Part shown: positions 9,201 through 41,434 of the stretch, piece after piece | Numbering within the stretch: position 1 is the first letter of the stretch | Layout of the letters: each line of letters begins with the position of its first letter | From: a virus | Virus record (IMG/VR): IMGVR_UViG_3300025122_003558 | Location: 1 to 46,073 of that record | DNA: 46,073 nt | Reading direction: 5' to 3' (one strand) | Made by a program: the position numbers and the translations under genes | The notes under the pieces: generated by a model | The model's database searches: none | Told to the model about the DNA's origin: nothing | What the model saw: the letters and a program-made list of their open reading frames with translations, nothing else

Positions 9201-9340
9201 GAATATCTCATACGGTTAGTCAAGGAAGTTATGAGACTAGGTTGACAATGTGGCCTCTGTCAGGATACCAGTCCTTCACTAGTCTGACAACAGCATTCTC
9301 TCAGGCTATAAAGAATATTGGAAACGCTCCGATACCTTAG
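6242..9340 (+). CDS. Baseplate hub-like protein (gp27 / late-control-D type features)
   Basis: A 1032-residue protein with AAGGAG just before ATG 6242. Around residues 320-350 it has LVLHDRARMNEISDLI followed by ELFIEWGWQHP, a pattern of tail hub proteins in which a displaced beta barrel precedes a 'W-G-W' strand. The C-terminus has YPAQIEMTIVGCP, FVDMGTGTTIDNIYAITGIS and HTVSQGSYETRLTMWPL. This 'G-x-P-x-x-x-x-G ... D-x-G-T-G-T-x-x-D-x-x-Y-x-I-T-x-x-x-H-x-x-x-x-G' run matches the end of gp27/late-control-D hub proteins. It is larger than T4 gp27 (391 residues), so extra inserted domains or a fusion are likely. It is the last structural gene before a promoter-like site and the replication block. 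Confidence 0.62.
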   Translation: MFPIGGLSMTTMQLGLTYAMAPSIAQEPLMDLPAFFSQYPLIAYRTSEKFRLGLIRQVLHDTNEGALPLFWLNALLRPLILPPPARPPIILFGKLVTSGQENVIAGGEISADEGLMMRPATIPEILGPDIANVQDYSNLTAMCIMDPEISNRTRHSDALQVFFNGIPSIELSQCVPFMKVTLMSGRPGIVNGVRVAGTSLVRFLEGSALALPGTPDYAMAGGALNPVALGANAVISATFGTSPSSLPGAKAIVGNELFTTPQTLVRSGIDLPGLDMFTRSVPLKGENRPFLSVDSLNIDVVGLRSGYLNRLEGTLNLVLHDRARMNEISDLIKPGTHHNSELFIEWGWQHPQGNLLTDNVVGQFMNNMRNRYKFRVINASYNFDDVGQVNINLRIVMSGGDAMEELRIFDDQGSSAVKKVAELGRTISTISRDLKSLVTSEGAFEDLKDVVGHQFLYAPTDTTRVPDTSVVDGVIAALSADKTDLISRNIDVVQLTTALNQLYLGGDLADVTPGQGYDEFEDGTPGLTTARLSVAQMARRKLYGLRNINLKDPFLSLVGQGTVERVTVGGSTEAITIPTPAGVGPSSASSPTVTATAGSTTFTEGRRFSKVSLGKLLLDFVGKPLAKSKRYDEVQLFFYPFNSEAGLMGKIAATAGTTTAGNPALRGVGREGPTADTDARNVAEFEIDLDSLEEVLTNVALRKGSLNMTLTEFMSEVISRFTDNTQNPNYGITSLANQTHIYEDGKVAVKSNDAAEAMENKSLSDQTILDDISPTGTFRKPQLEVSVEARSMLPPVAGLPVDPLKEITILRIHVYDAVDSPFKLESDLLEHSNPELLRPIANMGLKTSQKFTMAVTAGIIRPLVPTGVDTRHLEAAYKVTTRVDKLKKYVQGSMPSIVFGIQNSMIKSLQVRTMHDPLIATANLMDSKGLDSHLSPLGTEVNGMPALMYPAQIEMTIVGCPIVDFGQHVFVDMGTGTTIDNIYAITGISHTVSQGSYETRLTMWPLSGYQSFTSLTTAFSQAIKNIGNAPIP

Positions 9341-11219: not shown

Positions 11220-11738
11220 ATGGCGTCTTTGAAAGAATTTTTTGCAGGAAGATATCGATCTGTAGGAGGCCGCGGGGATGCTGTTCCTGCAGGGTCACAC
11301 AGAGTTGATACCGTTCCAAGACAAAGGGTCGGCCGTCCTAGGCTACCTACACCTCGCCCCGGGCAAAAAGGGGATCCTTCTGCATCCATGGACGTTGACG
11401 CATCTAATAGGATGCAGGGGCCGTTTTGGGACGAGCAAGATTTTGAAGACTTTGAAGAGTATCTTCTCAATCCCCCTGACGATCCGATGATAATTTACCT
11501 AAGGGAATTTATAAGAGGTGAAGTTCGTTCAATTGCTGAGTCAAAATCGGACGACGAAGCCGCGGCTCTCTTAGGCGACGACGATGATGAGGATGAGGAC
11601 GATACGGACGAGGCTAGCGTCTCTGCCAACGTAGCGGGTTACACAATTCCCCTGGGTGATAAACCACCCAACAGGAGGAAGAACCAGCCTCCTTCCTGGA
11701 AGTATTTCGCAAAAGCTTTAAATGCAAAACCTGTTTGA
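11220..11738 (+). CDS. Hypothetical acidic protein with internal LREFIR tag motif
   Basis: A 172-residue protein starting at ATG 11220, directly after a TATAAT box and without a ribosome-binding site. It begins MASLKEFFAG, followed by a Pro/Arg-rich low-complexity stretch to about residue 55. An acidic region with DFEDFEEYL comes next, then YLREFIRGEVRSIAES (residues 93-108) and an Asp/Glu-rich run around 115-130. The LREFIR block is the same motif seen at the N-terminus of several proteins at 31-41 kb, and SIAE followed by Ser resembles a T4 gp21-type cleavage site. The family is not known to me. By composition it could be a prohead core/scaffold or packaged protein; its place between replication genes is odd for that. 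Confidence 0.55.
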   Translation: MASLKEFFAGRYRSVGGRGDAVPAGSHRVDTVPRQRVGRPRLPTPRPGQKGDPSASMDVDASNRMQGPFWDEQDFEDFEEYLLNPPDDPMIIYLREFIRGEVRSIAESKSDDEAAALLGDDDDEDEDDTDEASVSANVAGYTIPLGDKPPNRRKNQPPSWKYFAKALNAKPV

Positions 11739-18604: not shown

Positions 18605-19203
18605 TACTTCTTAAAAAAGTAGATCCTAGAATAAAAGAAGTTGAACTTAGAAGGGACCCGGTAATTATCAGGGTTAATAAGTTTGATGAGGACTCCGCTA
18701 AAGATTTCAAGGAACAGATTATTAGCGCTCATAATACCGGCCAGGAGGTGATCCCTATTGTCATAGATTCATACGGAGGTCAGGTTTACAGTTTGATGGC
18801 AATGATTTCAGCTATTAACTCATCTCACTTGCCCATAGCTACAATTGTTGAGGGAAAAGCGATGTCCTGTGGGGCGGTCCTGTTAACCTTTGGTGCAGAC
18901 GGGATGAGATACATGGATCCTAGTTCTACCATTATGATACATGACGTGTCAAGTATGTCAAGAGGAAAAGTTGAGGAAATTAAAGCTGATTCTGCTGAGA
19001 CGGAGAGACTTAATAAAACCGTATACGAAATGATGGCTACTAACTGTGGGAAGAAGAAACGCTACTTTCTTGACCTCATCCATTCTAAGGGACATGCCGA
19101 CTGGTACATTGATTCGAAGGAAGCTAAAAAGCACGACTTGATAAATAGCACGAAGATTCCTTCTTTTGAAGTGCAGGTTGGAGTTAAATTTTCTCTAGTC
19201 TGA
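18601..19203 (+). CDS. ClpP-like serine protease
   Basis: A 200-residue protein starting at ATG 18601, overlapping the reductase stop (ATGA); an alternative GTG lies at 18595. ClpP/crotonase-fold features are IVIDSYGGQVYSLMAM (oxyanion Gly-Gly), EGKAMSCGAVLL (nucleophile Ser89), TIMIHDVSSM (His114) and YIDSKEAKKHDLIN near the end. Ser and His of the triad are clear; the third residue is less certain. ClpP peptidases chop unfolded proteins handed over by an ATPase, but phage relatives also act as capsid maturation proteases. Given the prohead-cleavage-like tags on other proteins here, a maturation role is possible. It lies far from capsid genes, though, and nothing proves it. Confidence 0.82.
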   Translation: MILLKKVDPRIKEVELRRDPVIIRVNKFDEDSAKDFKEQIISAHNTGQEVIPIVIDSYGGQVYSLMAMISAINSSHLPIATIVEGKAMSCGAVLLTFGADGMRYMDPSSTIMIHDVSSMSRGKVEEIKADSAETERLNKTVYEMMATNCGKKKRYFLDLIHSKGHADWYIDSKEAKKHDLINSTKIPSFEVQVGVKFSLV

Positions 19204-20491: not shown

Positions 20492-20716
20492 ATGTCTTAT
20501 AAATTATCTGATAACGTACTTAGAAGGATTGTTCAAATTGTCCAGGAAGGGTTTTTAACGGGAACTGATGTCGCAGATCACATGAGAATGATCAAGTTAG
20601 ATGTCGATGAAAATAACAGTTCTCAGTTAGTTTTAACTGAAGAGTATAAGACCCTAGTAGAAGGACAGCATGAATCTATGTTAAGTGAGATAGAAGAAAT
20701 TAAGGTTAGTGAGTAA
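20492..20716 (+). CDS. Small hypothetical protein (74 aa)
   Basis: ATG 20492 follows AGGAGGAAAT, an excellent ribosome-binding site, which rules out the longer frame from 20456. The product begins MSYKLSDNVLRRIVQIVQE, then FLTGTDVADHMRMIKLD, and ends in an acidic helical tail (SEIEEIKVSE). It is predicted all-alpha. I do not recognise the family. Small proteins with a 'V-x-x-I-V-Q-x-x-Q-E-x-x-L-T-G-x-D-V-x-D-H-x-R' pattern occur in other marine phages by my recollection, without a known role. It sits between repair and nucleotide-pool genes. Confidence 0.6.
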   Translation: MSYKLSDNVLRRIVQIVQEGFLTGTDVADHMRMIKLDVDENNSSQLVLTEEYKTLVEGQHESMLSEIEEIKVSE

Positions 20717-28501: not shown

Positions 28502-29575
28502 ATGACTGAGCCGTCAAGTGTTAATTGCATAATTTATCATGCTGACTGTACTGACGGATTTGGAGCTGCATATTCTGCATGGAAGCTTTTAGGAAATAGG
28601 GCTGAGTATCATGCGTGTAAGCACGGGACACCTCCGCCTGATGTTAAGGGAAAGTCTGTAGCTATTCTCGATTTTTCTTTTGACAATGCAACAATTAAGG
28701 AAATGATCAAAATTGCAGAAAGTCTCATTGTTATAGATCACCACAAGTCTTCCATGGTAGAGCTTCATGATATCACTAACACCATGTTTGACATGACAAA
28801 ATCAGGCGCCATGTTATCTTGGGAATTCTTTCATCCAGGAAAGGAGCCACCAAAGTTTATTCAGTACATTCAGGACAGGGATCTTTGGAAGTGGGAACTT
28901 CCTTACTCTAGAGAATTTTCAGCTGCTTTTGACATGATTCCCTTTGAGTTCGAGGAGTTTGAAAAGTACGAGGATGACTCTGTTTTCGATGACACTGTTA
29001 AGAGAGGATCCTACATTTTAGCTTACTCTAAGACCGTGATCAAAAAGGTGTGTGAAAAGGCATCGACCAGGAAGTTTGAAGGATTGGATGTCCTGGTTGT
29101 TAATGCTTCTCACTGGATATCTGAGATCGGATCACGACTCTCCCCTGATTGTGATTTTGCGATGATCTGGTACTATGATCACAATGATTACAAGATAAAA
29201 GTTAGCTTGAGGTCTTTTCATGAGACTGTTGATGTTTCTGAGATCGCTAAGAAATTTGGAGGCGGAGGTCACAAGAAGTCTGCTGGATTCACCCTTTTAC
29301 CCGATGCCCACGTTGATGACTTATTTGATCTTATCGACGTCGAGGATGAGGAGACGTTTACTGTTAATACTTTTAACGTTAGGAAAGAGCTTGAACAGTT
29401 AAAGGAAAAAATAGAGAAGGAAGTTGTAGATCCGCTTGTTGAAAAAGGGGAATCTGTTGATCTGTCTGGAATTAATTTGATTGAGGAACAGTTGACTGAG
29501 ATTGAAAAGAAATCTACTGTGACCAGCGAAGATAAAGATCCCGACATTATATCTAGAACGTCAGGAAGTCAATAA
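28502..29575 (+). CDS. DHH/DHHA1 family phosphoesterase
   Basis: A 357-residue protein. The DHH domain has IIYHADCTDGFGAAY (metal-binding Asp), VAILDFSF, and VIDHHKSS (the name-giving Asp-His-His), followed by FIQYIQDRDLWKWELP. The DHHA1 domain follows, with KKFGGGGHKKSAGF (Gly-rich substrate loop). After about residue 275 there is a charged helical tail (ELEQLKEKIEKEVVDPL). The family includes RecJ exonuclease, NrnA oligoribonuclease and cyclic-dinucleotide phosphodiesterases. The compact size and the QDRD motif favour an NrnA-like nanoRNase or pAp phosphatase over RecJ. A role in degrading cyclic-dinucleotide defence signals is possible but unproven. Confidence 0.82.
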   Translation: MTEPSSVNCIIYHADCTDGFGAAYSAWKLLGNRAEYHACKHGTPPPDVKGKSVAILDFSFDNATIKEMIKIAESLIVIDHHKSSMVELHDITNTMFDMTKSGAMLSWEFFHPGKEPPKFIQYIQDRDLWKWELPYSREFSAAFDMIPFEFEEFEKYEDDSVFDDTVKRGSYILAYSKTVIKKVCEKASTRKFEGLDVLVVNASHWISEIGSRLSPDCDFAMIWYYDHNDYKIKVSLRSFHETVDVSEIAKKFGGGGHKKSAGFTLLPDAHVDDLFDLIDVEDEETFTVNTFNVRKELEQLKEKIEKEVVDPLVEKGESVDLSGINLIEEQLTEIEKKSTVTSEDKDPDIISRTSGSQ

Positions 29576-30977: not shown

Positions 30978-31250
30978 GTGAAAATGGATAAGATCACCAA
31001 GTTTGATGTGCTTCGTATGATAAGCTCTCAAAAATCGTTTTTTAAAAGAGAGGGCTTGATGTCTCTTGGAAAATCTAAGTCTCCTGGGATAATAGTTATA
31101 TCTCCAGGATTGAAAGTCTTTCATAAAAAAACGAGGTACTCTTATCAGGTTTACAAAGCAACGGCCGACGGAGTCCTACTCACAATCCCAGATTCTAAGG
31201 AGATTTTTTTCGTGTCTAAAAAGGACTTTGAAAAGGACTACATTCTTTAA
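30978..31250 (+). CDS. Small hypothetical protein (90 aa)
   Basis: Starts at GTG 30978 (six bases after AAAAGG) or ATG 30984. The product begins with a basic stretch (DKITKFDVLRMIS), then has a predicted beta-rich part (GIIVISPGLKVFH, YSYQVYKATADGVLLTIP) ending KDFEKDYIL. It looks like a small single-domain protein of mostly beta strands with a basic N-terminal helix. The family is not recognised. 'FDVLRMISSQ' is faintly like the tag motif of the next genes but lacks its pattern of charges, so I do not count it. Confidence 0.6.
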   Translation: MKMDKITKFDVLRMISSQKSFFKREGLMSLGKSKSPGIIVISPGLKVFHKKTRYSYQVYKATADGVLLTIPDSKEIFFVSKKDFEKDYIL

Positions 31251-31267
31251 TAGTAAAGGACAAAATA

Positions 31268-31957
31268 GTGAAAAAAAAAGATGTTCAAAAAATCATAAAA
31301 GATACGTTTAGCAACTACAAGGAAGAACCTGATCAACTATCAGAATCCTATGTAGCTTCTATTAAGTCTTTTTCTCTTCCAACAGAAAGGATGAGCAAAA
31401 AAACAAAGTCTATGCTATTAAAAGATTATGAATCTCATGTGGATGCTTTCAACAAAATAAGTGCCATGTTGGACACTTCTAACAGAGAGAGTTCTAATTC
31501 TGATTACTCTGGTTACAGATCTTTAAAGATTGATGAAATTTATAATATGAACTCTATTTACATGACTGAGTTGTATTTGTCAAACATTAGCGATCTAACA
31601 AGCGAAATTTTAATGGAATCTTTATCCTTTATGAAGCTTGAAAGAGACTTTGGAACTTTTGAAAACTGGCAGAGAGATTTTATAGCTTGTGGAATGTCGG
31701 CGAGATCTGGTTACGTCGTCACAGCGTTTTCTACATATCTACAGAGATACGTGAATTTTTTCACCGATTCGACTAATTCTAACGTTCCTATTGGGACATA
31801 TCCAACTATAGTTTTAAGAGTAGATGAAATTTCTTATGATAAGGACTACGCAAACAACAAGAAAGCATATATTTACAATATGATGAAAGAACTTAATTGG
31901 GACATTATTGAACAGAGGTTTAATAAGTCTGAAAAAATTGCGAAATCTATTAGGTGA
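31268..31957 (+). CDS. Superoxide-dismutase-fold protein lacking metal ligands, with N-terminal tag
   Basis: A 229-residue protein from GTG 31268. Residues 1-17 (KKKDVQKIIKDTFSNY) form the tag-like helix. From about residue 34 the sequence follows Fe/Mn superoxide dismutase: FSLPTERMSKKT (SOD: L-P-Y...). Then come ERDFGTFENWQRDF (SOD: F-G-S-F-E-x-F-K-x-x-F), SGYVV (S-G-W), YPTIVLRVDE (P-I-L-G-L-D-V-W-E-H) and KDYANNKKAYI with ELNWDIIEQRF at the end. All four metal ligands look lost: the first His region reads MLLKDYE, the second has Glu101, and the D-x-W-E-H block reads RVDEI (Arg184, Ile188). So the fold is kept but enzyme activity is unlikely. A structural or virion role is my inference. 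The fold call comes from reading motifs and would need profile confirmation. Confidence 0.72.
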   Translation: MKKKDVQKIIKDTFSNYKEEPDQLSESYVASIKSFSLPTERMSKKTKSMLLKDYESHVDAFNKISAMLDTSNRESSNSDYSGYRSLKIDEIYNMNSIYMTELYLSNISDLTSEILMESLSFMKLERDFGTFENWQRDFIACGMSARSGYVVTAFSTYLQRYVNFFTDSTNSNVPIGTYPTIVLRVDEISYDKDYANNKKAYIYNMMKELNWDIIEQRFNKSEKIAKSIR

Positions 31958-31966
31958 GGAGAAACC

Positions 31967-32182
31967 ATGAAAATTTTAGATAAGGAACTTCTTAAAAGAA
32001 TTATTCTTGAGGAGAAGGCGAAGCTTGAAAAGGATATCCAGGAAGGAAGGGTCAGTCTTTCTTCTAAGGAAAACTTGGACCATGAGAACAAAAAGTCTTC
32101 TGAGAAAGAGGAACTTCCTAACGCTGTTATGGAAGACTACGACCGGTGGACTAAACTATCTGGGATCTTTTTAAAGGATTAG
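31967..32182 (+). CDS. Small tagged hypothetical protein (71 aa)
   Basis: ATG 31967 is nine bases after the previous stop and follows GAGGAG. The N-terminus is MKILDKELLKRIILEEKAKL, the tag pattern (L-L-K-R-I-I-x-E-E). The rest is a charged, low-complexity stretch (SSKENLDHENKKSSEKEE) and a short C-terminal helix with MEDYDRWTKLSGIF. There is no obvious folded domain, so it is mostly tag plus linker. It could be a packaged peptide or core component. It sits between the SOD-fold gene and another tagged gene, all within a few bases, so they are probably co-expressed. Confidence 0.62.
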   Translation: MKILDKELLKRIILEEKAKLEKDIQEGRVSLSSKENLDHENKKSSEKEELPNAVMEDYDRWTKLSGIFLKD

Positions 32183-32183
32183 A

Positions 32184-32735
32184 ATGCGCCTCACACTTGA
32201 CGTCTTGAGGCAGATTATTTCGGAAGTCGTCGACGGCGCTGATTCTCCGGATAAGGATGAGCTGTCTCTTACATCTGTCGATAACCAGATAGACTCGATA
32301 TTAATTGGATTTGAATCTGAGTCCATGTCTGAAAAAGGCTTAAGTGAATTTTCATCTTTCACATTAAGAGATCTTCTTCTTGAACAAGAAGACGAGGACG
32401 CGTCGGAGGAAGAACCAGAAAAGGAAGTGACCGATAGCTCTGCAAGATCTGAAGAAGAGTCTGTCGATCCTAATGAACCCGCTTTAGACGTTGATGAGTT
32501 TGTTTCAAAAGTTGGAAGACTTATTCTCAACTATGATAACCTACTTGACATCCCAAGTGTCATAATCAACAGGGCCAAAAATTACTTATCAAGTAGCGGG
32601 TACGGTGATGAAATTATTGAAAGTTTTCAGGATGAACTTTTTGATCGTTTTGGACCGGATATAGGTGTCGATTTTGATGGGCCCTCCGCCCCCATCGCGA
32701 GCGGAGCAGGACCTCTTGGAGGAAGCGCAGCATAA
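32184..32735 (+). CDS. Tagged acidic protein with helical C-terminal domain (183 aa)
   Basis: Begins MRLTLDVLRQIISEVVDGAD, a clear tag (L-R-Q-I-I-S-E). A second tag-like copy, FTLRDLLLEQED, lies at about residues 57-68, followed by an acidic linker (EDEDASEEEPEKE). Residues about 100-155 form a small helical domain: LDVDEFVSKVGRLILNYDNLL, then PSVIINRAKNYLSSSGYG. The C-terminus is Gly/Ala-rich. Two successive tags, each ending in a Glu that could be a cleavage point, suggest stepwise processing like T4 core proteins. The domain family has no known function that I recall. It overlaps the next gene by one base. Confidence 0.65.
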   Translation: MRLTLDVLRQIISEVVDGADSPDKDELSLTSVDNQIDSILIGFESESMSEKGLSEFSSFTLRDLLLEQEDEDASEEEPEKEVTDSSARSEEESVDPNEPALDVDEFVSKVGRLILNYDNLLDIPSVIINRAKNYLSSSGYGDEIIESFQDELFDRFGPDIGVDFDGPSAPIASGAGPLGGSAA

Positions 32736-33028
32736 TGTCCACTTTTGATTCTGTTCTTGGGTTTAAAAAAAGTGTTCACATAAAACTCAATTCAGATACA
32801 CATTCAGGATTTAGAATTTCTTTGTTTGAAAAAAAATTATCAATGCAAGAAACATTTGAGGAATTTGCCAGTAGAGTTTCTCAGAAGGATCCTGTTGCTA
32901 TGAAAATCATAGATGAACTAGTTGACAAGAAAAGGAAAGGACGGGTGAGAAAAGCTGTTGAGCATTCCGATGCTTCTTCGCTTTTTGACATCATTGAATC
33001 CCAAAGTCCTTTAAGGGATGATTTATGA
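32735..33028 (+). CDS. Hypothetical protein, possible ribbon-helix-helix-like fold (97 aa)
   Basis: ATG 32735 overlaps the previous stop by one base (TAATG). The core reads VHIKLNSDTHSGFRISLFEKK, then LSMQETFEEFASRV, a strand followed by two helices, somewhat like ribbon-helix-helix DNA-binding proteins, in which a beta strand reads the major groove. A basic patch follows (DKKRKGRVRKAVEH). It may be a small DNA-binding or assembly regulator. Its position inside the late-looking region argues for a role tied to virion genes. The fold suggestion is tentative. Confidence 0.55.
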   Translation: MSTFDSVLGFKKSVHIKLNSDTHSGFRISLFEKKLSMQETFEEFASRVSQKDPVAMKIIDELVDKKRKGRVRKAVEHSDASSLFDIIESQSPLRDDL

Positions 33029-33291
33029 TTTCTGGCTGGGTGAGAAAAATTGCTAAGAACGAGTTCGCAACCCTGGCTGCGGGTATCGCTCTTGTTACCG
33101 AGAAACTATCTGAGCTTTACGCAATGCATGAAAAGGTTGCCAATGCCTGTTTAGAAAATAGACAGATTATTAATATGATGGCGGAAATGCACTCGTCAAT
33201 GATGCAAGAAGTTTCGAAGCAGATTAACGAAGATAATCTTAAAACCTCTTTAATGCCTGTCGACCCGTCAGACAAGGACTTTATAAACTAA
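33025..33291 (+). CDS. Small helical hypothetical protein (88 aa)
   Basis: ATG 33025 overlaps the previous stop (ATGA). The product is MISGWVRKIAKNEFATLAAG, followed by long amphipathic helices rich in Met (INMMAEMHSSMMQEV). The hydrophobic stretch FATLAAGIALV is too short for a firm membrane span. No family recognised. It immediately precedes three small membrane proteins and may belong with that cassette, for example as an antiholin-like partner, but nothing in the sequence proves this. Confidence 0.55.
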   Translation: MISGWVRKIAKNEFATLAAGIALVTEKLSELYAMHEKVANACLENRQIINMMAEMHSSMMQEVSKQINEDNLKTSLMPVDPSDKDFIN

Positions 33292-33473
33292 TGAAACACT
33301 TGCTAGATCAAGGATTACAAAAACTTATTTCACGCAAGCTTCTTGCTTGGGCAACGGCAACCGGACTCTTAGCATTCGCAGATTTAACATCTGGTGACTG
33401 GGTGATCATTACTTGTGTTTACATTGGAGGCCAAACTGTGGTTGACACTGTTGAAAGGCTTAGAAAAGCATAG
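33291..33473 (+). CDS. Small membrane protein, holin-like (60 aa)
   Basis: ATG 33291 overlaps the previous stop by one base. The sequence has a basic N-terminus (QKLISRKLL), a hydrophobic segment (LLAWATATGLLAFADL), a short polar turn (TSGDW) and a second hydrophobic segment (VIITCVYIGGQTVV), ending in charged residues. Two close membrane spans in 60 residues fit class II/pinholin-like phage holins, which form lesions in the inner membrane at lysis time. The genes after it encode a membrane-anchored coiled-coil protein and an exported protein, consistent with a lysis cassette. No endolysin is visible nearby. Confidence 0.6.
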   Translation: MKHLLDQGLQKLISRKLLAWATATGLLAFADLTSGDWVIITCVYIGGQTVVDTVERLRKA

Positions 33474-33475
33474 AG

Positions 33476-33790
33476 ATGAAGAAGAAGTTTTTAAATAGGA
33501 TTAAAAAGTACTGGTGGATTATTCTAACCTTAGTCTCCCTCTTTGCTTTGTTTTTAGCAGTTTTTCTACCACGACGATCTCGGAATGTAGTTAGTTCATT
33601 ATCAGAGACATTTGCCACAAAGGCTCAGGTAGAGGATCAAGCATATGATACTAAGGTTCTAATTGCTAAGCACGAGTCTGGGGAGCAGAAAGCTGTCTTT
33701 AAGGCTCGGATGTCAGAAATTGAGAAAGTTTCAGATACCAAGGAGAGGCTAGCTCGGCTCATACAACTTAAAAAAGAAGTTATGGGATGA
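33476..33790 (+). CDS. Membrane-anchored helical protein, inner-membrane spanin-like (104 aa)
   Basis: Basic N-terminus (MKKKFLNRIKKYW), one strong membrane span (WIILTLVSLFALFLAVFL), then a long charged helical domain that would lie outside the inner membrane (TKAQVEDQAYDTKVLIAK, KERLARLIQLKKEV). This is the layout of i-spanins (Rz), which act in the last step of lysis in Gram-negative hosts. It overlaps the next gene by four bases, as Rz/Rz1 pairs often do, though Rz1 is usually nested. Other single-span virion or superinfection proteins are possible. Confidence 0.5.
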   Translation: MKKKFLNRIKKYWWIILTLVSLFALFLAVFLPRRSRNVVSSLSETFATKAQVEDQAYDTKVLIAKHESGEQKAVFKARMSEIEKVSDTKERLARLIQLKKEVMG

Positions 33791-34206
33791 CTAAATTTTT
33801 AACCTCTCTTGTCCTATGTGTTTCGATCCTGCTTCCAGGAACTCTCTTCGCAGATGAAATTGTTCAGTTTGAGGACATGCCTGTCGAGTACACGATGGGT
33901 GATAACACCTACGTTGGAATCCTCGTGTCCGAGGATGAGTACAAAAGGATGGTAGACGCTACCAGAGAACTTCAGATTGATCTGGCACTTTCTCAGGCGA
34001 CACTACAGGCTTTTCAGGAAAGATACGAAACCCAGATGTTTTTGAAAGATCAGCACATTGGAATTCTTGAAAAGGAAGTACAAAGAACTGACACGTGGTT
34101 CTATAGGCATAAGGGTGGTATTGGATTGGCTGTTGGATTTATCGTAGGAGCAGCTGTAGTCACAGGTGTTACTTACGCTGTTAACCAACCGTCTCCGGGT
34201 CTTTAA
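33787..34206 (+). CDS. Exported protein with C-terminal membrane span, spanin-like (139 aa)
   Basis: ATG 33787 overlaps the previous stop (ATGA). The N-terminus is a signal peptide (FLTSLVLCVSILLPGTLFA) with likely cleavage before Asp-Glu and no lipobox. A periplasmic part follows, with a predicted coiled coil (about 65-100: LQIDLALSQATLQAFQERYE). After HKGG comes a C-terminal membrane span (GIGLAVGFIVGAAVVTGVTY). An exported helical rod tethered at one end resembles unimolecular spanins, except that the N-terminal lipid anchor is missing. Together with the two genes before it this suggests a lysis module. The 55-base gap after it contains the ribosome-binding site of the next gene. Confidence 0.52.
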   Translation: MTKFLTSLVLCVSILLPGTLFADEIVQFEDMPVEYTMGDNTYVGILVSEDEYKRMVDATRELQIDLALSQATLQAFQERYETQMFLKDQHIGILEKEVQRTDTWFYRHKGGIGLAVGFIVGAAVVTGVTYAVNQPSPGL

Positions 34207-34261
34207 TTTATTGTTCAATAATTGACCCTTGCGAGATAATTACTCTTGAGGAGTTTTTATT

Positions 34262-35542
34262 GTGAGAGTTGTCGTGGATCGATCCGCCATTGAAGACTTT
34301 ATTAGGGAAGTCACCGATGTTTCATCGGAAAGTCCCCCTGCTAATATTCCAGAACCCGTGGCACCGACTAGCTTACCAATAGAAGCTCAACCTAAAGCCA
34401 TCATAGACATGTCCGGAATCGCCCCTCCTATTAGAGATGAAGAGTATGTTCCGGCAAATAATTACGACCTAAGCTATGCTACTAGCGCTCTTTCAATGCA
34501 TGTGCCCCCCGAAAAAGTTGAAAAATTTTACAGGATTGTTAGAAAACTTGTACTAGACGTCATTACACAAAACAGGGAAGAACAAAAATCTCCGGAGTTA
34601 GAAAGCATGGATGAACGAATACTAAAAGAAGATGTTAAACTTATTCTTAAGGTGCTATCCGAGGCATCGGAGGAAGAGATCGAGGCCATGGCATCAAAGC
34701 TAGGTCTTAAGAAGGATCTTGACAAAGAGGAAGAGGAAGAGGACGATGCTCCTGTTCCTGCCGCCTCAGACGTAGTTGACTGGGAGGACATTCGACGGGA
34801 TGCGGAGGAACTTGGACTCGTGGGAGATCTTCCAGGACAGTTTAAGACCGCACCGAAGACTGTCAGCGCTCTGACAAACGTGACCGGCTGGATGAGAAAG
34901 AGGCTTGGAACGAGAAAGTTCGATCCGGATACCCAGATGAAACTAGAAGAGATTTCAAACATGTCAAACATCGTGTTCAACTCTCTTGTCAACATGTTCA
35001 ACAAGCCCTACGATCCTGCCGGCGACTTTTCCGACCTCCACAGAAAGAACGTTGCTTACCGGGTTGTCTTTAGTTTCTTCGTTGAAAACACCCTTCAGGA
35101 CTTGTTTGGGATAAAGTCAACTAACCTTGCCGTAGCGATGGAGAAGATCTCGAAAGATTTTGAGGAAGCTGGAATGGATCAAAAGAAGGCAACAAGGGCT
35201 GCTTTAGATGAGGTCTACACAGGCTTAAGACAACTTAATGTCAGCATGAAAGAGGCATACGATACCTTTAATGATAACTTCAAGTTAATGTTTGTTGATG
35301 AGAGTAGCCCTTCCTACATTGGTATCGGAATGGATGAAGTTGAAAATCTCGATGACACAGAGAGGAAAGAACTAGCCACCAAGATCGGCGCGCCAAGCGA
35401 TAGTGTCGAGTCGATTCAGGATGTTCTTTTTGATAAAGTCTTCAGTGGACCTGGAATGAAGGTTGCCCTGGAGTACATGTCTGTCCTTGAAAGTTCTTAC
35501 GACAAAGCTGAGACTGCACTAAAGAAGTCATCCGGTCAATAG
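34262..35542 (+). CDS. Tagged structural-type protein (426 aa)
   Basis: GTG 34262 follows TTGAGGAG. The N-terminus has RSAIEDFIREVTDVSSES, a weaker version of the tag (I-E-D-F-I-R-E). A Pro-rich linker follows (about 25-60), then a helical region with FYRIVRKLVLDVI, an acidic run (DKEEEEEDDAP) near 155-165, and a large helical C-terminal domain (200-420: GWMRKRLGTRKF, MSNIVFNSLVNMFNKPYD). The family is not recognised. Size, acidic linkers and neighbours suggest a head-interior or core protein processed during maturation. It is followed within eight bases by the lipoprotein gene. Confidence 0.58.
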   Translation: MRVVVDRSAIEDFIREVTDVSSESPPANIPEPVAPTSLPIEAQPKAIIDMSGIAPPIRDEEYVPANNYDLSYATSALSMHVPPEKVEKFYRIVRKLVLDVITQNREEQKSPELESMDERILKEDVKLILKVLSEASEEEIEAMASKLGLKKDLDKEEEEEDDAPVPAASDVVDWEDIRRDAEELGLVGDLPGQFKTAPKTVSALTNVTGWMRKRLGTRKFDPDTQMKLEEISNMSNIVFNSLVNMFNKPYDPAGDFSDLHRKNVAYRVVFSFFVENTLQDLFGIKSTNLAVAMEKISKDFEEAGMDQKKATRAALDEVYTGLRQLNVSMKEAYDTFNDNFKLMFVDESSPSYIGIGMDEVENLDDTERKELATKIGAPSDSVESIQDVLFDKVFSGPGMKVALEYMSVLESSYDKAETALKKSSGQ

Positions 35543-35549
35543 TTGAACC

Positions 35550-37157
35550 TTGGTTTTAAAACCAAGTAAAAACATATGTAATTTAGTGGATAGTCGCTTT
35601 TATTACACGTGGATAGTCGCTTTATCTCTCGTATTTGTATCCGGATGCAGCGATTTTTCACTTCATAAAGTTGAAGATCTTTCTCCTGAGATCGAGGTAA
35701 CGCCCACTATAGTAAATTTTGGAAACTTAAACGCCGCCGGCGATCTTGGATTAGAGACTGTTGTAGTTAAAAACATTGGAACAAGAAATTTAATTATTGA
35801 CAACATAAAAATATCCGATCAACCCTCTGTGTTTGCTGTCACTTCGACTGCAACGGATGTCTTGGAACCACAAGAAGAGACGTACTTTGAAGTGTTTTAC
35901 GATCCAACAACGTACTCTATCGACATGTCAGTTGCCACCGTTTCATCTAACGATCCGGACCTTCCTGAAGTTGAGGTTTTTTTGATAGGAGAAGGATCAG
36001 CCCCGGTTATCCAAGTCACACCACAGAACCATGATTTTGGAGATGTTACGATTGGATGTGAAATAGACTTAGAGGTTGTAATTTCCAACATCGGGGATGT
36101 CGATCTTCAGGTTGACAATTTAGATTATTTTGTTTCTTTTCCAACAAATTTTTCTCTTAATGAAAATTTTATCTATAATGGGAATTTTCCTTGGAACATC
36201 CCTCCAGGGGGATCAAACCCGTTTTACATAAAGTATCTTCCAGATGACATGTCTCATGATACCGGCTGGGTTGATGTTCACTCAAGCGATCCCGTGATTC
36301 CTGTAATTACTGCTGACCAGACAGGAAACGGAGAGACTAATCAAGTAGCCTACGATCAATTTGAGCAGCAGGATTTGTCAAATGCTGATGTTCTCTTTGT
36401 TGTTGATAATTCTTGTTCCATGGGCCAGGAGCAAGCTTCTCTTGCTAATAACTTTAATTCTTTTATCAGTGTATTTATGCTGAGTGGAGTTGACTATCAC
36501 ATTGGGGTCATTACAACCGACAACCAAAGCCTTAGGGGCGATGTTATAACTTCCACCCATCCCGATCCTCAAGGTGAATTTTCAAACCAAGTACAAGTGG
36601 GAGTCCTAGGAAACGCCAACGAGACCGGCCTGGCCTTTGCAAAGTCTGCAACTTCTCCTGGTGGTGAAGCTTCTCCTGGAAGTGCGTTTTTCAGACCAAC
36701 CGCGAAGATGTCCATAATCTTCGTGTCAGACGAGAAGGATCATTCTATAGGCTTACCTTCAACTTATAGTTCCCATTTTTCTTCACTTAAATCAAGTCCT
36801 AACTTGATCTCTGCACATGCTGTTAGTGGTGATTATCCTAACGGGTGTCAAGGTGCTGAATTTGGCGACGGTTATTATGACGTTGTTCAAAATTTACACG
36901 GATCATTTGTATCAATTTGTTCAAATGATTGGGGAAGCCAGATGGAACACTTAGCAAGGGAATCAATGTTAACAGATACTTTTTATTTATCTGAGCAGGC
37001 TGTTCCTGGTAGTATTGAGGTCTGGGTCGATGGAAGCTATAGCTTGAATTGGATCTATGATACTATGGCAAACTCCGTTATCTTTGATAGTTTTAGCATT
37101 CCGTCCCAAGGTCAGATGATTGATATTGAGTACGCTGTGTTTGGAGACTGTCTGTAG
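35550..37157 (+). CDS. Lipoprotein with two choice-of-anchor-D-like domains and a vWA domain
   Basis: Up to 535 residues from TTG 35550; GTG 35586 (12 codons in) gives a neater signal peptide. Either way WIVALSLVFVSGC is a lipoprotein signal with the lipobox Cys at residue 33. Two Ig-like repeats follow (VTPTIVNFGNLNAAG and VTPQNHDFGDVTIGC), the pattern of choice-of-anchor D/HYDIN-type domains. Then comes a von Willebrand A domain with a MIDAS loop VLFVVDNSCSMGQEQ (Asp286-x-Ser-x-Ser) and IIFVSDEKDHS. Proteins of this design are common on the surface of myxobacteria and related deltaproteobacteria. In a phage it could alter the infected cell surface, block superinfection, or sit on the virion. 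Transfer from a host is likely. Confidence 0.8.
   Translation: MVLKPSKNICNLVDSRFYYTWIVALSLVFVSGCSDFSLHKVEDLSPEIEVTPTIVNFGNLNAAGDLGLETVVVKNIGTRNLIIDNIKISDQPSVFAVTSTATDVLEPQEETYFEVFYDPTTYSIDMSVATVSSNDPDLPEVEVFLIGEGSAPVIQVTPQNHDFGDVTIGCEIDLEVVISNIGDVDLQVDNLDYFVSFPTNFSLNENFIYNGNFPWNIPPGGSNPFYIKYLPDDMSHDTGWVDVHSSDPVIPVITADQTGNGETNQVAYDQFEQQDLSNADVLFVVDNSCSMGQEQASLANNFNSFISVFMLSGVDYHIGVITTDNQSLRGDVITSTHPDPQGEFSNQVQVGVLGNANETGLAFAKSATSPGGEASPGSAFFRPTAKMSIIFVSDEKDHSIGLPSTYSSHFSSLKSSPNLISAHAVSGDYPNGCQGAEFGDGYYDVVQNLHGSFVSICSNDWGSQMEHLARESMLTDTFYLSEQAVPGSIEVWVDGSYSLNWIYDTMANSVIFDSFSIPSQGQMIDIEYAVFGDCL
35586..35623 (+). repeat. 15 bp direct repeat, 23 bases apart, in the lipoprotein signal region
   Basis: GTGGATAGTCGCTTT occurs at 35586-35600 and again at 35609-35623. 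The first copy contains the in-frame alternative start GTG. The 23-base period is not a multiple of three, so the two copies are translated in different frames. It may be a recent short duplication that built or altered the signal peptide. Confidence 0.6.
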
Positions 37158-37187
37158 TTATTACTTTGTGTGGTTAAGATATTAAAA

Positions 37188-37592
37188 ATGAAATTCACTT
37201 CCCTTAAATCGCTGTTAAAAGAAAACTTGGATGCATCGTCTAGTCTAAACAAGAGGATATTTGAAAAAATTGGAATAAGAGATCGTCCGGAAGTTAATAA
37301 ACAACTTGAAGAGGAAGAAAAAGAGAACCGATGGGAAGTGATTAGTGATCCAACTAGATTAATCAGGAAGTACAAGTTTCCAGATTATAGAGTCTTACAG
37401 GAATTCGTCATCGACGTCTTAGATTTTCAGGGTGATCTCAACCATCACGGAACCTTGCACGTAAATCCTGACGAGGTGATTGTTGAAGTATATACTCATG
37501 ATATTAATGACATCACAGAGGTTGATCACGAATACTCAAAAATTGTTGAGGAAATCTACTTAGACGTGAAGGATCGAAAATCAAAATGGTAA
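37188..37592 (+). CDS. Pterin-4a-carbinolamine dehydratase-like protein with N-terminal tag
   Basis: A 134-residue protein from ATG 37188 (an upstream GTG at 37170 is possible). Residues 1-15 (MKFTSLKSLLKENLD) are the tag motif. A charged linker runs to about residue 45. The rest is a PCD domain: RWEVISDPTRLIRKYKF, then FQGDLNHHGTLHV (His86-His87) and VEVYTHDINDITEVDHEY (His104, Asp105). The H-H-x-x-x ... T-H-D pattern is the pterin-binding active site; the usual Pro after H-H is Gly here. The family recycles oxidised pterin cofactor or acts as a transcription coactivator, and PCD genes are known in marine phages. With a virion-type tag it might be carried in the capsid. Confidence 0.78.
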   Translation: MKFTSLKSLLKENLDASSSLNKRIFEKIGIRDRPEVNKQLEEEEKENRWEVISDPTRLIRKYKFPDYRVLQEFVIDVLDFQGDLNHHGTLHVNPDEVIVEVYTHDINDITEVDHEYSKIVEEIYLDVKDRKSKW

Positions 37593-37969
37593 GTTCTTCC
37601 GAGGGATCGTTTTTTGCTAGCGAGTCAATTAGAGATAAGATCGACATGTCTCAGTTTGAAACTTCGGAAACTGACGATCCCCCTGTTGACCTTAGTGATT
37701 TTTTCATAGTTGACCTGGAGGACGGGAGCCAAGTCAAAACTGAATTTCTTGCAGTAGACTTTTGTCAAGATGAAGTTAGGATAACTATGGCCTGTTGGAA
37801 TCCGGAGGATATAAAAAAGATCATGAGTTCTCGTGAGGCTAGTTATTGCATATCTTTGTCCGGACAAGATGTTCTAAGTGGGTCCGGAGATATTACAAAT
37901 ACCTCAGTTAGGATTGCCAATGGAGCTTACCTTCTTGAAATTGCTTTTTCTAGCCGTGAGAATACTTAA
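37586..37969 (+). CDS. Hypothetical beta-rich protein (127 aa)
   Basis: ATG 37586 overlaps the PCD-like gene by seven bases. The first 45 residues are polar and acidic. The rest alternates hydrophobic and polar residues as in a beta sandwich (DFFIVDLEDGSQVKTEFLAV, EVRITMACWN, VRIANGAYLLEIAFSS). There are no catalytic motifs, signal peptide or tag. It could be a small structural decoration or tail protein. Not recognised. Confidence 0.6.
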   Translation: MVSSSEGSFFASESIRDKIDMSQFETSETDDPPVDLSDFFIVDLEDGSQVKTEFLAVDFCQDEVRITMACWNPEDIKKIMSSREASYCISLSGQDVLSGSGDITNTSVRIANGAYLLEIAFSSRENT

Positions 37970-37983
37970 ATGTGGAGGCGTAC

Positions 37984-38184
37984 GTGAGAAAAGAACAACA
38001 AGAGCTTATGTTTGACAAGTTCATGGATGACATTGTTAAACGAGAGGACCAAAGTAAGCAGAAGGATCCTGGAGACCCTGAGGAAGTTACCCTATCTAGG
38101 GAGTACTACATTAAGTACAGAGAAACTTCTAAGAATCTAATCAAGGTAGGAAAAAATGAAGACTCTAAGACTAACAAGCGCTAA
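37984..38184 (+). CDS. Small charged hypothetical protein (66 aa)
   Basis: GTG 37984 is five bases after GGAGG (37974-37978), better placed than the in-frame GTG at 37972, which overlaps that site. The product is RKEQQELMFDKFMDDIVKRE, a polar linker, then SREYYIKYRETSKNLIKVGK. It is highly charged and helical. The end overlaps the start of the next gene by 29 bases and supplies its ribosome-binding site (AGGTAGG). No family recognised. It may be a small adaptor or structural protein. Confidence 0.55.
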   Translation: MRKEQQELMFDKFMDDIVKREDQSKQKDPGDPEEVTLSREYYIKYRETSKNLIKVGKNEDSKTNKR

Positions 38185-38818
38185 AAATATCCGGACATTT
38201 TTGGAATCTACGGTCGTTAAGGCCGTTGAACAGGCAAGGTCTGAGACCGGTATTGAGTCCCAAAAGCAAAGTAACTATTCGAAAAAGTCTAAAGATTTTA
38301 ATAGCATGATATCAGAAGTAGAGGAGGAGGACGTCGAGGCTTCCCCGGAGGAGGACGTTGAGGCAGAACCGGAGGAGGAATCCCCCGTTGAAGACGAAGC
38401 ACCCGAACCACCGGAAGAAGAAGGTGGCCTAGAACCTGAACCTGAGACTGAAGAATTTGCTTACTCTTTGGGATCCCTGGTGGATCAGATAAACTCTATG
38501 AGGTCTGGCAAGTCAGCAACTCGTGGAGCGATTAACTCTGAGTTACAAGTATATTTTGGTGGGTTGGACGATGCTGAAAAAGTTGCATTGACAAAGTTTA
38601 TGAAAGGCATCGCTCAAGTTTTAACTGGATTGTCAGGGGAAAAGGCAGTTGAACCTGAAGATGAACCTGATCCAGTGGATGTCGTATTTGTTGGGAAAGT
38701 CGAAGAACCCCCGGAAGAACCTGAAGAGGGAGAAGAGGATGCAACGACACCAATTAAAGTTGCAGAGGAGATGGTTCGAAATGCCATACACTCGCTCCTT
38801 AACAAGGAGCGACGATAG
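38156..38818 (+). CDS. Acidic tagged protein, scaffold/core-like (220 aa)
   Basis: Starts MKTLRLTSAKNIRTFLESTVVK, a tag variant (I-R-T-F-L-E). Residues about 58-105 are a Glu/Pro-rich run of imperfect repeats (VEASPEEDVEAEPEEE). A helical domain follows (FAYSLGSLVDQINSMRSGK, ALTKFMKGIAQVLTGL) and a second acidic linker (EEPEEGEEDATTP), ending MVRNAIHSLLNKERR. Acidic, low-complexity, helical proteins with cleavage-like sites are typical of prohead core proteins such as T4 gp68/gp22, though no homology is claimed. The last codons encode one arm-loop-arm of a perfect RNA hairpin. Confidence 0.58.
   Translation: MKTLRLTSAKNIRTFLESTVVKAVEQARSETGIESQKQSNYSKKSKDFNSMISEVEEEDVEASPEEDVEAEPEEESPVEDEAPEPPEEEGGLEPEPETEEFAYSLGSLVDQINSMRSGKSATRGAINSELQVYFGGLDDAEKVALTKFMKGIAQVLTGLSGEKAVEPEDEPDPVDVVFVGKVEEPPEEPEEGEEDATTPIKVAEEMVRNAIHSLLNKERR
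38792..38812 (+). terminator. Strong stem-loop at the end of the acidic protein gene
   Basis: TCGCTCCTT, loop AAC, AAGGAGCGA: a perfect 9 bp stem with a three-base loop spanning the last codons of the gene. No T-run follows, so it is not a classic intrinsic terminator. It may stabilise the mRNA 3' end, mark a processing site or slow ribosomes. The AAGGAG inside the stem also looks like a hidden Shine-Dalgarno. Confidence 0.4.
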
Positions 38819-38852
38819 CAATGATTATAACTTATCTTAACAACCTGATAGA

Positions 38853-39089
38853 ATGACAAGCATGGAAAGTAGAAAAATTACGCTCCCCAAGGGGCAGGAA
38901 CTTTACGTTGACTTTAGTGAGAAGTTTGAGGAGGTTGTGAGAAGTCATTTTAATTTGAAAGATGGCGACTCATTAACTGACAGAGACATTCGGTTGTTTA
39001 TTATAGACTCCATGCAGGCCGCGGTCGTCAATGCAAGCAGTTCAAAAAATCAAATACGCGGGCGAGGCGTTGTACCTGTCGACCGGTAA
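38853..39089 (+). CDS. Small hypothetical protein (78 aa)
   Basis: Starts at ATG 38853 or ATG 38862; neither has a strong ribosome-binding site. The product is ESRKITLPKGQELYVDFSEK, then FEEVVRSHFNL and LTDRDIRLFIIDSMQAAVVN, ending in a basic tail (NQIRGRGVVPVDR). It is a small alpha/beta protein with no recognised family. It lies between tagged genes. The DIRLFIIDS helix is loosely like the tag but is central and lacks its charge pattern. Confidence 0.52.
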   Translation: MTSMESRKITLPKGQELYVDFSEKFEEVVRSHFNLKDGDSLTDRDIRLFIIDSMQAAVVNASSSKNQIRGRGVVPVDR

Positions 39090-39150
39090 AAACCAATCTA
39101 TTCATAGAATGATTAGAAGCTAACTACATAATTAACATGTAGGAGGACTT

Positions 39151-39438
39151 ATGTCACGTGATCCCCTTCGTCAGTTGATTAGAAAAACTTTAAATGAGAC
39201 CATAACTTCCCTTGGGAAGCGACAGATTACCTTGGAGTCTGGAGATGAGGTTGCCTACGGGTGCATGCGCCACCTGGATGAAATGAACTCCACACTTGAT
39301 AGCCTGGTCCATCTAAGAAACAACACCCCTCGTAGAACTTCCAGGAGATACTCTTACTCCCGAGCAATAGGAAGTCTTAGGGAAGAAATTAGAAACATCA
39401 AGAGGAAGCTGGGAAACCAGGAACTTCACCTAGATTGA
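39151..39438 (+). CDS. Small tagged protein (95 aa)
   Basis: GGAGGAC lies just before ATG 39151. The N-terminus is MSRDPLRQLIRKTLNETI, one of the clearest tags (L-R-Q-L-I-R ... L-N-E). The remainder is basic and helical: RHLDEMNSTLDSLVHLRNN, a Ser/Arg-rich stretch and IGSLREEIRNIKRKLGN, a short coiled coil. Its positive charge would suit binding to packaged DNA, as with T4 internal proteins, but this is inference. The 60-base gap before it holds an AT-rich stretch without a convincing promoter. Confidence 0.62.
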   Translation: MSRDPLRQLIRKTLNETITSLGKRQITLESGDEVAYGCMRHLDEMNSTLDSLVHLRNNTPRRTSRRYSYSRAIGSLREEIRNIKRKLGNQELHLD

Positions 39439-39445
39439 AATCAAG

Positions 39446-40384
39446 ATGAAAGATTCTACTCTAAGAGAGTTTATTCGAAGATCGTTGGTTCAGGAGGTTA
39501 TACAGTTACCTCCTATTCTAACTGATCTTGGGTACGGAGTAGAGAGATCCTATACCGAGGAGGCGTTTATCAGGCCTCTCTTCAAGGTTCTAGGACAGGT
39601 CTTCCTACTTGGCGGAGCAGCTCTTGACACTGCTCTAAACCTTTTTACCGACGCCACAGCAGGTGTTGTTGGATTGATTCTACCTGGATTGGGTGAGCAA
39701 TTATTTGACCTCAAGGATGGGGTTAGTAAGATAAACAGGGGACTAATTCAGACCATTGGAAAGGAGATCTCGGCCACCGGGGACTGGAAGGAGATGATGA
39801 TCACGCTGATGACGGTGGGACTTGGGGTAAAGGTTGTTGGAGCTTTGGATCTGTCACCGCTCGATGAAACACGTAGAATTTTTGAACAGATTGCCCCTGA
39901 ACAAGAGTCCCGACAGTTATTTGACTTCATGGATGATCTTTCGAATCAGTTGGTTATCGACGCAGCAGCCGATGCCGAGACCCTTATTTCCATCTTAAGG
40001 GAGCCAAGCCTGTCCTCGTTTCTCTCCCGAGCCGGGATTTCGTACGATCCGGCCGCGGCGGAGGCTGACTTAGAGGATCGAAGGATCTTAGGGGGGTTTT
40101 CTGGCATGCTTGGGCTAGTTAGAGATGAACTGAGAAGGAGATTAGATCTTTCTTCTAGAGACTCGTCCTACTTGGATCCCAGGAAGGCCCGGGCCCTGAT
40201 GTCGAAGGTGGAAGAGGAAACATCTAAAAGCGTTAAAAAACAAGTTGTCGAAGCCTTGCTACAGAAAAGACCATGGGTTGACATCATGACTATGATGTCA
40301 AGAGAGAAAGAACTGTCCGGTTCACCTCTCCACAAGGCTCTCTACACGCAGTACGAAAGAGTCACAAGAGAAATAAGTGGTTGA
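39446..40384 (+). CDS. Tagged protein with hydrophobic region, possible internal/ejected protein (312 aa)
   Basis: Begins MKDSTLREFIRRSLVQEVIQL, the best tag example, with a cleavage-like L-V-Q-E. Residues about 45-90 are strongly hydrophobic and Gly/Ala-rich (VLGQVFLLGGAALDTAL, ATAGVVGLILPGLGEQLF), and another hydrophobic helix lies near 115-130 (MMITLMTVGLGVKVVGAL). The C-terminal half is helical and charged. A tag plus membrane-active segments would fit a protein carried in the head and ejected to form a channel. A structural role is equally possible. No catalytic motif is visible. Confidence 0.6.
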   Translation: MKDSTLREFIRRSLVQEVIQLPPILTDLGYGVERSYTEEAFIRPLFKVLGQVFLLGGAALDTALNLFTDATAGVVGLILPGLGEQLFDLKDGVSKINRGLIQTIGKEISATGDWKEMMITLMTVGLGVKVVGALDLSPLDETRRIFEQIAPEQESRQLFDFMDDLSNQLVIDAAADAETLISILREPSLSSFLSRAGISYDPAAAEADLEDRRILGGFSGMLGLVRDELRRRLDLSSRDSSYLDPRKARALMSKVEEETSKSVKKQVVEALLQKRPWVDIMTMMSREKELSGSPLHKALYTQYERVTREISG

Positions 40385-40392
40385 CGCGTCGT

Positions 40393-40420
40393 TTTACAGC
40401 GCTGTTAAGGTTGCTAAGAT
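40393..40420 (+). promoter_or_regulatory. Weak promoter-like site with palindrome
   Basis: TTTACA (40393-40398), a 16-base spacer and TAAGAT (40415-40420) precede ATG 40448. The spacer side overlaps a perfect 10 bp palindrome ACAGCGCTGT (40396-40405), which could be an operator or a coincidence. The match to consensus is modest. Confidence 0.3.
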
Positions 40421-40447
40421 TACATGAAGATGCAACGCGGAGGTTCA

Positions 40448-40798
40448 ATGTCTGCTGACTGGATACCTGAAATAGTTTATGAGATGCCTGATGAAACTGG
40501 AAAGGCTAGTTCCATTCCTATCGTACACGTTCCAAGTGGAAAAGAGATGCCTGGATTCTTGTTCATCTTTGAGTCCCGTACAACCGGAGAGTTCGAACCG
40601 GACTCCGAGGGAAACGAGGTCCCTGTTGTTGACATGGAACTTCACCAGTATGCTAACATGTCAACATTAAAGAGTAACCTTTCTCCTGAGAACTTTGATA
40701 CCGTCCGCACCTGCCTAGGCCTTAAGCCCCTTGGAGAGGCAGTGCAGGAAGGTAAAGAGATTACATCTAAGATAAGAGAGAATTTAGAGCCTTCCTGA
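40448..40798 (+). CDS. Hypothetical protein (116 aa)
   Basis: ATG 40448 follows GGAGG (40439-40443), so the in-frame ATGs at 40424 and 40430 are probably not used. The product starts MSADWIPEIVYEMPDE, has MPGFLFIFESRTTGEFEPD, a Pro/Asp/Glu-rich middle and a C-terminal helical part (LSPENFDTVRTCLGL). It looks like a small soluble beta/alpha protein, possibly a neck or head-completion component. No family recognised and no tag. Confidence 0.58.
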   Translation: MSADWIPEIVYEMPDETGKASSIPIVHVPSGKEMPGFLFIFESRTTGEFEPDSEGNEVPVVDMELHQYANMSTLKSNLSPENFDTVRTCLGLKPLGEAVQEGKEITSKIRENLEPS

Positions 40799-40837
40799 TA
40801 AAATACACACAAGTAGATAGTTAAACCAGGAGGAATT

Positions 40838-41434
40838 GTGTTCGAGTTTGACCCAAAAAGACTATCTAAGTTATCTGGAATAGAGATTCAAGGCCCTCAG
40901 GCCAAAGAGAGTGGCGGTGATTCTCCTCTTCGTGAGAGCTATTACGTTAACTACGAGCCTGAGAACTACGACGAAAAGACCAAAGAGGAGATTGAGGACG
41001 AGTCGTCCGAGGACTCCCCACACAACCTTAGTGGTTTCTCATTCTACAAACCCAGTGAAGACAAGTACATTCCAAGAATTTTCGCCCCTCAAGAGAAACA
41101 ACCTTTTATTAACAAGGATATCCTTAAGTCTGACATCACGTTGACCGAGATTGTATTCAGAGAGTTTGTCAGAGAGGAAATAAGGACGTATCTTGCCGAA
41201 TACCAAGTTCCCATTGGAAGGCTGACTAGAACCCCACATGCCTCATCTGGGGCCCGTAGGATGAGAGGGGCTCATAAGGTCTTGCAAAGCGTGTACCTCG
41301 AACCCACTGATGCTGTTGATGACGACATCCTTTCCCGGATTGCGCGTGATAAAGGTAGAGCTGGTAGCACATCTGGTCGCCCCGAGGAATTTCCTGGTGG
41401 TACCTCAACTAGGCCACCAGGCACTATGAAATAG
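40838..41434 (+). CDS. Hypothetical protein with internal tag motif (198 aa)
   Basis: GTG 40838 follows AGGAGG. The first 95 residues are acidic and polar, including SPLRESYYVNYEPENYD. Residues 105-121 read IVFREFVREEIRTYLAE, the tag motif at an internal site, ending in L-A-E. A basic region follows (IGRLTRTPHASSGARRMRG) and a Gly/Thr/Pro-rich tail. The layout matches the 11220 gene: disordered N-part, central tag, basic or acidic tail. Cleavage after Glu121 would release a basic C-terminal fragment of 77 residues. The function is unknown. Confidence 0.58.
   Translation: MFEFDPKRLSKLSGIEIQGPQAKESGGDSPLRESYYVNYEPENYDEKTKEEIEDESSEDSPHNLSGFSFYKPSEDKYIPRIFAPQEKQPFINKDILKSDITLTEIVFREFVREEIRTYLAEYQVPIGRLTRTPHASSGARRMRGAHKVLQSVYLEPTDAVDDDILSRIARDKGRAGSTSGRPEEFPGGTSTRPPGTMK

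Follow-up and report, generated by a model that had tools for sequence, protein, structure and literature searches.

The 46,073-base virus record IMGVR_UViG_3300025122_003558 (the window, which is the whole record) comes from a large marine phage related to T4 and encodes a group of proteins that begin with variants of one short amphipathic helix. A first-pass annotation of this DNA had proposed that the helix is a tag for loading diverse proteins into the prohead, related to the capsid-targeting sequence (CTS) of phage T4, and every peptide it quoted is present where it was placed. Comparison of the window with related phages indicates that this tag is genuine and not a chance resemblance, and that it is probably a T4-type capsid-targeting propeptide serving a greatly expanded system. 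The N-terminal helix (core L-[RK]-x-[IYLF]-[IV]-[RK]-E, usually continuing to L-x-E) would draw proteins into the core of the prohead as the head is assembled, an S77 (gp21-type) prohead protease would cut after the Glu of [LI]-x-E and remove the tag, and the freed cargo would stay in the head and probably be ejected with the DNA. We infer head entry, cleavage, ejection and any cargo function from sequence comparison; the case for head loading is built on the position of tagged genes in the head operon, the company of S77 and gp23 genes, the match of the predicted cleavage site, and a likeness in register between the short tag class and the T4 CTS. Computational checks of profile spread, controls, S77 context and cleavage-site pattern support the earlier prohead-loading proposal.

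Distribution of the tag

Relatives of the window phage were collected via its replicative helicase, the largest being G001 (267 kb) and G002 (133 kb), and genes were called with a simple purpose-made caller. A tag profile of 10 positions was trained on seven other phage contigs, with the window never in training; its consensus is L-[RK]-[RQK]-[IYL]-[IV]-[RK]-E-[ECA]-L, and the hit threshold was set at 9 bits. Four window genes (31967, 32184, 39151, and 39446) exceed this threshold compared with 0.08 expected from shuffled N-termini and 0/40 internal segments, with shuffle p ≤ 0.003 for each. Across 17 genomes the profile identified 242 tagged proteins; 234 lie in 12 related contigs once the window, Microcystis phage Mel-JY01, and two contigs overlapping with another contig are set aside. 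The six largest genomes contain 23-45 tagged proteins each, whereas shuffles give approximately one or fewer and internal segments of the same proteins 0-4, although the counts of 23-45 are biased upwards because these genomes are in-sample for the profile.

The eight window N-termini for which a shared helix had been claimed score higher than the rest of the window genes (Mann-Whitney p = 4e-6), which is only a check, as they were picked for looking alike. The claim holds on their own scores for the four strong N-termini and through tagged relatives for those at 31268, 34262, and 38156 (Table 1). Support stays weak for the pterin-dehydratase-fold protein at 37188, which had been offered as an example of tagged cargo: its score is low and its family is not clearly tagged. 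The two internal copies reported in the proteins at 11220 and 40838 were recovered by the profile.

As back-translated DNA, the 15-residue start MKITKRQLRRIIKEE was matched exactly in 53 IMG/VR stretches; a search of 84,980 cellular genomes gave just two contigs. Contig L204 (NHDW01000006.1; 305,838 bases), from a metagenome-assembled genome named Methylococcaceae bacterium TMED69, combines ~22 tag copies with an S77 gene and is therefore most likely a phage genome, probably of a jumbo phage, binned with the bacterium. The tag is nearly absent from Mel-JY01, the closest annotated isolate by helicase (2 matches above 9 bits, compared with 0.28 in shuffles), and ~65 kb of T4 gave one chance-like profile match. 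Among GenBank phages, the bare tag returned by tblastn only one weak match, to an uncultured record, and the SOD-fold and head-operon proteins have no annotated isolate relative there. The protein at G015 78330 is tagged and unusually long (1104 residues); ~55 residues in, it has another tag-like stretch, LYLRGILSE, perhaps a repeat of the tag.

Unrelated proteins behind one peptide

The 227 tagged proteins longer than 70 residues fall into 148 single-linkage families by their sequence past residue 30, with 116 singletons, in agreement with the earlier suggestion that the tag moves independently of the rest of the protein. For all 371 within-genome pairs of the longer tag class with at least 60% identity over 15 tag residues, the mature parts have no BLASTP match. 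Domains in the tagged set include SOD, GNAT acetyltransferase, DUF192, PAP2/PhoC acid phosphatase, RelA/SpoT-type HD, and zeta toxin/AAA_33 kinase, with 1-2 members each, and the tagged families vary widely between related phages. Defence-system models gave 0 matches among 150 tagged proteins. A candidate T4 Alt-like ADP-ribosyltransferase (L136:4382-4789) was dropped, its model having a predicted local distance difference test score (pLDDT) of 34, and two similar-looking candidates gave no useful match to a solved structure.

Homologues of 20 replication and metabolism proteins are tagged in 0/212 cases compared with 236/2232 for other proteins (p 2e-10).

Head operon of the relatives

The window, a genome fragment, carries tail and baseplate genes at 528-9340, followed by a replication and nucleotide-metabolism block; the reported tagged genes lie in a block at ~31-41 kb together with a GroEL-like gene. 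Among the window genes, none was recognised as encoding a portal, a capsid protein, or an S77 protease, so all statements on head genes rest on relatives. Genes for a T4-type gp23 capsid protein and for an S77 prohead protease are present in both G001 and G002. Eight relatives have the head operon complete, and in these its genes run from terminase and portal through a conserved gene to the S77 protease, followed by tagged proteins A and B, small genes, a gp22-like scaffold, and gp23. Proteins A and B have starts of the types LKxLxKECLVEILxE and LLKKLVLEEK, respectively. Thus the prohead protease, a T4-type S77 enzyme, adjoins two tagged genes, which lie between it and gp23 in 8/8 complete operons. 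Three operon copies (A and B in G015, B in G010) had been called too short; when read from an upstream in-frame ATG, all three start with the tag, with strong scores for two and a weak one (2.9 bits) for that in G010. Comparison gave no support for a copy of this helix in the gp22-like scaffold.

All 12 tag-bearing contigs that reach 100 kb have both S77 and gp23, although these are not 12 independent events given a single broad lineage with apparent near duplicates. Of seven contigs in this size range that were picked with an arbitrary 14-mer, one has S77 (Fisher p 2.6e-4, an optimistic value given the relatedness of the contigs, some of which look nearly identical).

A ClpP-like protease gene in the window (18601-19203) adjoins the ribonucleotide reductase gene, shares ~60-64% identity with its counterparts in relatives, and matches PHROG head maturation proteases. 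It was rejected as the head protease, as relatives carry both the ClpP-like gene and S77.

Predicted cleavage site

Predicted cleavage sites were compared among tag ends, the SOD-fold family, and the capsid protein. The first-pass annotation had noted that tags mostly end in hydrophobic/small-x-Glu or hydrophobic-Glu, and over 238 tags the pattern [LIVMF]-x-E follows the core in 162, compared with 84 ± 6.4 in shuffles. In the SOD-fold family, [LIVMF]-x-E/[ASN][YFL] (slash, predicted cut) stands at the junction of tag and domain in 62/65 members, whereas the region before the domain is otherwise nearly free to vary but for the helix. The junction residue Glu26 is invariant in the first ten members, and one of the three exceptions (L361, NIIKE/SYV) is a miss of the pattern only. 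At the expected end of the propeptide, the gp23 proteins of the same phages read L-[RK]-E/[AQS]. T4 gp21 cleaves after L/I-x-E (PMC9026906). The SOD-fold junction motif therefore matches both the specificity of gp21 and the predicted gp23 site, and the hydrophobic-x-Glu pattern is common to all three sets.

In the window SOD-fold protein (31268-31957), all four metal-ligand positions are apparently lost, as read by eye from the alignment, whereas several relatives, for example L137:8743-9450, retain His/His/Asp/His. The tag-domain junction is kept in either case.

Tag copies and other genes in the window

Table 1. Tag and tag-like copies in the window; positions are those of the helix or tag region, and scores are from the 10-position profile.
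Feature	Position	Strand	Score and remarks	Relatives
Tag region of SOD-fold protein (31268-31957), helix KDVQKIIKDTF	31268..31345	+	-0.9 bits, shuffle p 0.066; predicted cut after Glu26 (QLSE/SYV)	Homologues 9.8 and 13.6 bits
N-terminal tag MKILDKELLKRIILEE of 71-residue protein (31967-32182)	31967..32014	+	20.2 bits, 0/1000 shuffles	
N-terminal tag MRLTLDVLRQIISE of acidic 183-residue protein (32184-32735)	32184..32225	+	17.5 bits	Homologues in G015, G006, G001: 15.0-23.2 bits
Tag-like N-terminal helix MRVVVDRSAIEDFIRE of 426-residue protein (34262-35542)	34262..34309	+	-1.1 bits, shuffle p 0.018	Positional counterpart G006_30334: 11.5 bits
Tag-like start MKFTSLKSLLKE of pterin-dehydratase-fold protein (37188-37592)	37188..37223	+	2.2 bits, p 0.083; weak	Family not clearly tagged
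Tag-like start (NIRTFLE) of acidic 220-residue protein (38156-38818)	38156..38206	+	Shuffle p 0.65, not significant singly	Homologues in G001, G015, G021: 13.0-15.8 bits
N-terminal tag MSRDPLRQLIRKTLNE of 95-residue protein (39151-39438)	39151..39198	+	17.3 bits, 0/1000 shuffles	G006 homologue 7.5 bits
N-terminal tag MKDSTLREFIRRSLVQE of hydrophobic 312-residue protein (39446-40384)	39446..39496	+	13.4 bits, p 0.003	None in IMG/VR search
Tag copy MIIYLREFIRGEVRSIAE internal to called gene, begins at in-frame ATG	11487..11540	+	15.7 bits	11220-protein homologues in G001 and G010 tagged N-terminally; G001_8888, 19.1 bits
Internal tag copy FREFVREEIRTYLAE in 198-residue protein (40838-41434)	41156..41200	+	9.2 bits at residue 107	

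The protein at 37188-37592 was assigned its pterin-4a-carbinolamine dehydratase fold by Pfam, and its His-His and Thr-His motifs are apparently retained. Its homologues in relatives stand in the same gene order, after the SOD and 32184 families. A small conserved protein at 20492-20716, next to a MazG-like gene, has a borderline tag-like start (LRRIVQIVQE, 5.7 bits). The product of 35550-37157 has the look of a lipoprotein (LVFVSGC) and a VWA-like DNSCSMG motif, the domain being read by eye; its relatives in G010 and G020 share 40% and 34% identity, respectively. The protein at 28502-29575 resembles DHH phosphoesterases by eye and shares 69-80% identity with some relatives and only 45-50% with others, a split that suggests exchange between phages.

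Alternative explanations

Several observations weigh against prohead loading. Two window copies of the tag are internal to their called genes (11487 and 41156). The first is at residue 38 of the 11388-11738 reading, with the ATG at 11487 four residues before the core and no clear ribosome-binding site, and the only alternative start near the second is a TTG; both may be N-terminal if the gene starts were misassigned. The T4 internal proteins score negative with the profile. Some tagged genes lie within the replication region, beside HD and gp32 genes, and the 212 control homologues represent only 20 families, of which 0/20 are tagged with ~2 expected, so that this control carries modest weight. 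The count of 162 in 238 tags is weak alone, because the periodicity of an amphipathic helix can itself yield hydrophobic-x-Glu. The tag-bearing contigs form one broad lineage, in which some look like near duplicates (G012, G014, and G016).

The tag could instead be a docking helix for a phage or host factor, a membrane, or a phage compartment, with the tagged proteins being host-takeover proteins gathered at one site rather than virion cargo. A helix of this amphipathic basic/acidic kind fits generic docking, and many tagged proteins are small, variable, of unknown function, and like accessory genes. However, two tagged genes neighbour the protease gene within the head operon, the SOD-fold family conserves its [LIV]-x-E/[AS] junction, and import into the phage nucleus, one route that docking might serve, is reported to proceed without a conventional terminal import signal (PMC13282480). 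We consider a docking role unlikely.

Slightly less likely still is that the tagged proteins are parts of the prohead core or scaffold that are degraded in maturation, like T4 gp67 and gp68, and are not delivered. The two most conserved tagged families are in the head operon, where T4 has its core genes, and several families have acidic, low-complexity sequences. The folded enzyme-like domains of the tagged set and the wide variation of its families between related phages argue against this explanation for the set as a whole; its scope may be limited to the two operon families.

Duplication at the DNA level, with the shared N-terminus hitch-hiking with start regions as a functionless peptide, could account for tag DNA that is on average 58-73% identical within a genome, and up to 93%, and for the adjacency of many tagged genes. 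However, differences between tags concentrate at third codon positions (0.22/0.20/0.44 at positions 1/2/3), whereas codons 31-44 of the same genes show no such bias (0.72/0.72/0.74), and upstream sequences do not align by eye. This concentration shows that the tag peptide is under selection and is not merely copied DNA, and duplication is very improbable. Chance resemblance among short amphipathic N-termini selected by eye, for which the window copies at 31268, 34262, 37188, and 38156 would speak, as they are unconvincing singly when their scores are set against shuffles, is just as improbable given four hits where 0.08 were expected and the in-sample counts in the large relatives.

Implications

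Capsid targeting thus remains our preferred explanation of the tag. We further lean towards the idea, with less assurance, that in these marine T4-related phages one exchangeable peptide loads a large and rapidly changing collection of enzymes and effectors into each head; much of the accessory genome would then reach the next host as protein at infection. If the tag is a head-loading signal, dozens of unknown genes in each genome could be predicted, by sequence only, to encode virion cargo whose mature ends are predicted too, within a tagged group that recurs in public viral metagenome contigs. The tagged proteins would also become candidates for injected factors that act in host takeover or anti-defence. 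A review of the field raised the possibility that the CTS lets T4-like phages load various proteins (PMC9026906); this older suggestion of a general loading mechanism would become directly testable.

Comparison with known head-loading systems

The closest likeness is to the CTS of T4 (IPI-IPIII and Alt, processed by gp21, an S77 protease), which is also a short N-terminal propeptide common to otherwise unrelated proteins. In IPIII, residues 4 and 7 of the CTS govern targeting and residues 8 and 10 processing (PMC9026906). T4 IPII and IPIII start MKTYQEFIAE, and the short class of the tag (34 sequences) reads MKxLREYIRxLLxE, with L at position 4 in 97%, Y/F/L at 7 in 91%, and I/V at 8 in 100%, such that hydrophobic 4, aromatic 7, and Ile 8 fall in the same register. 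Both have Glu at an [LI]-x-E site, and the relatives in the tagged lineage have the S77 protease and gp23 capsid. The systems differ in that T4 has a handful of tagged proteins compared with 23-45 per large genome here, in the short class the Glu usually occupies position 14 rather than the T4 processing position 10, and the commonest class (MKITKRQLRRIIKEE...), the longer one, begins its core four residues later. Because the T4 peptides score negative with the profile, the likeness is one of spacing and chemistry over ten residues, seen by eye, and not demonstrable homology.

Phage P1 also has an N-terminal capsid-targeting signal, as the first 30 residues of DarB suffice to send a reporter to the head (PMC9024508). 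The P1 Dar N-termini differ in having no consensus by BLAST, and P1 has another head and protease. In the giant phages phiKZ and SPN3US, the propeptides of inner-body and ejection proteins (PMC5694885) resemble the tag in that many proteins are packaged in the head and a gp21-related protease cuts after Glu, but these propeptides are mostly longer than 100 residues, with no single short motif across many proteins. Text searches of the open-access literature gave only these T4, P1, and phiKZ-type precedents and did not find the tag motif strings. Collectively, the proposed loading mechanism is that of the T4 CTS and is already known; as far as the open-access literature shows, what appears to be new is the scale, with each phage having dozens of families that carry the tag, together with the division into two tag classes and the conservation of the junction.

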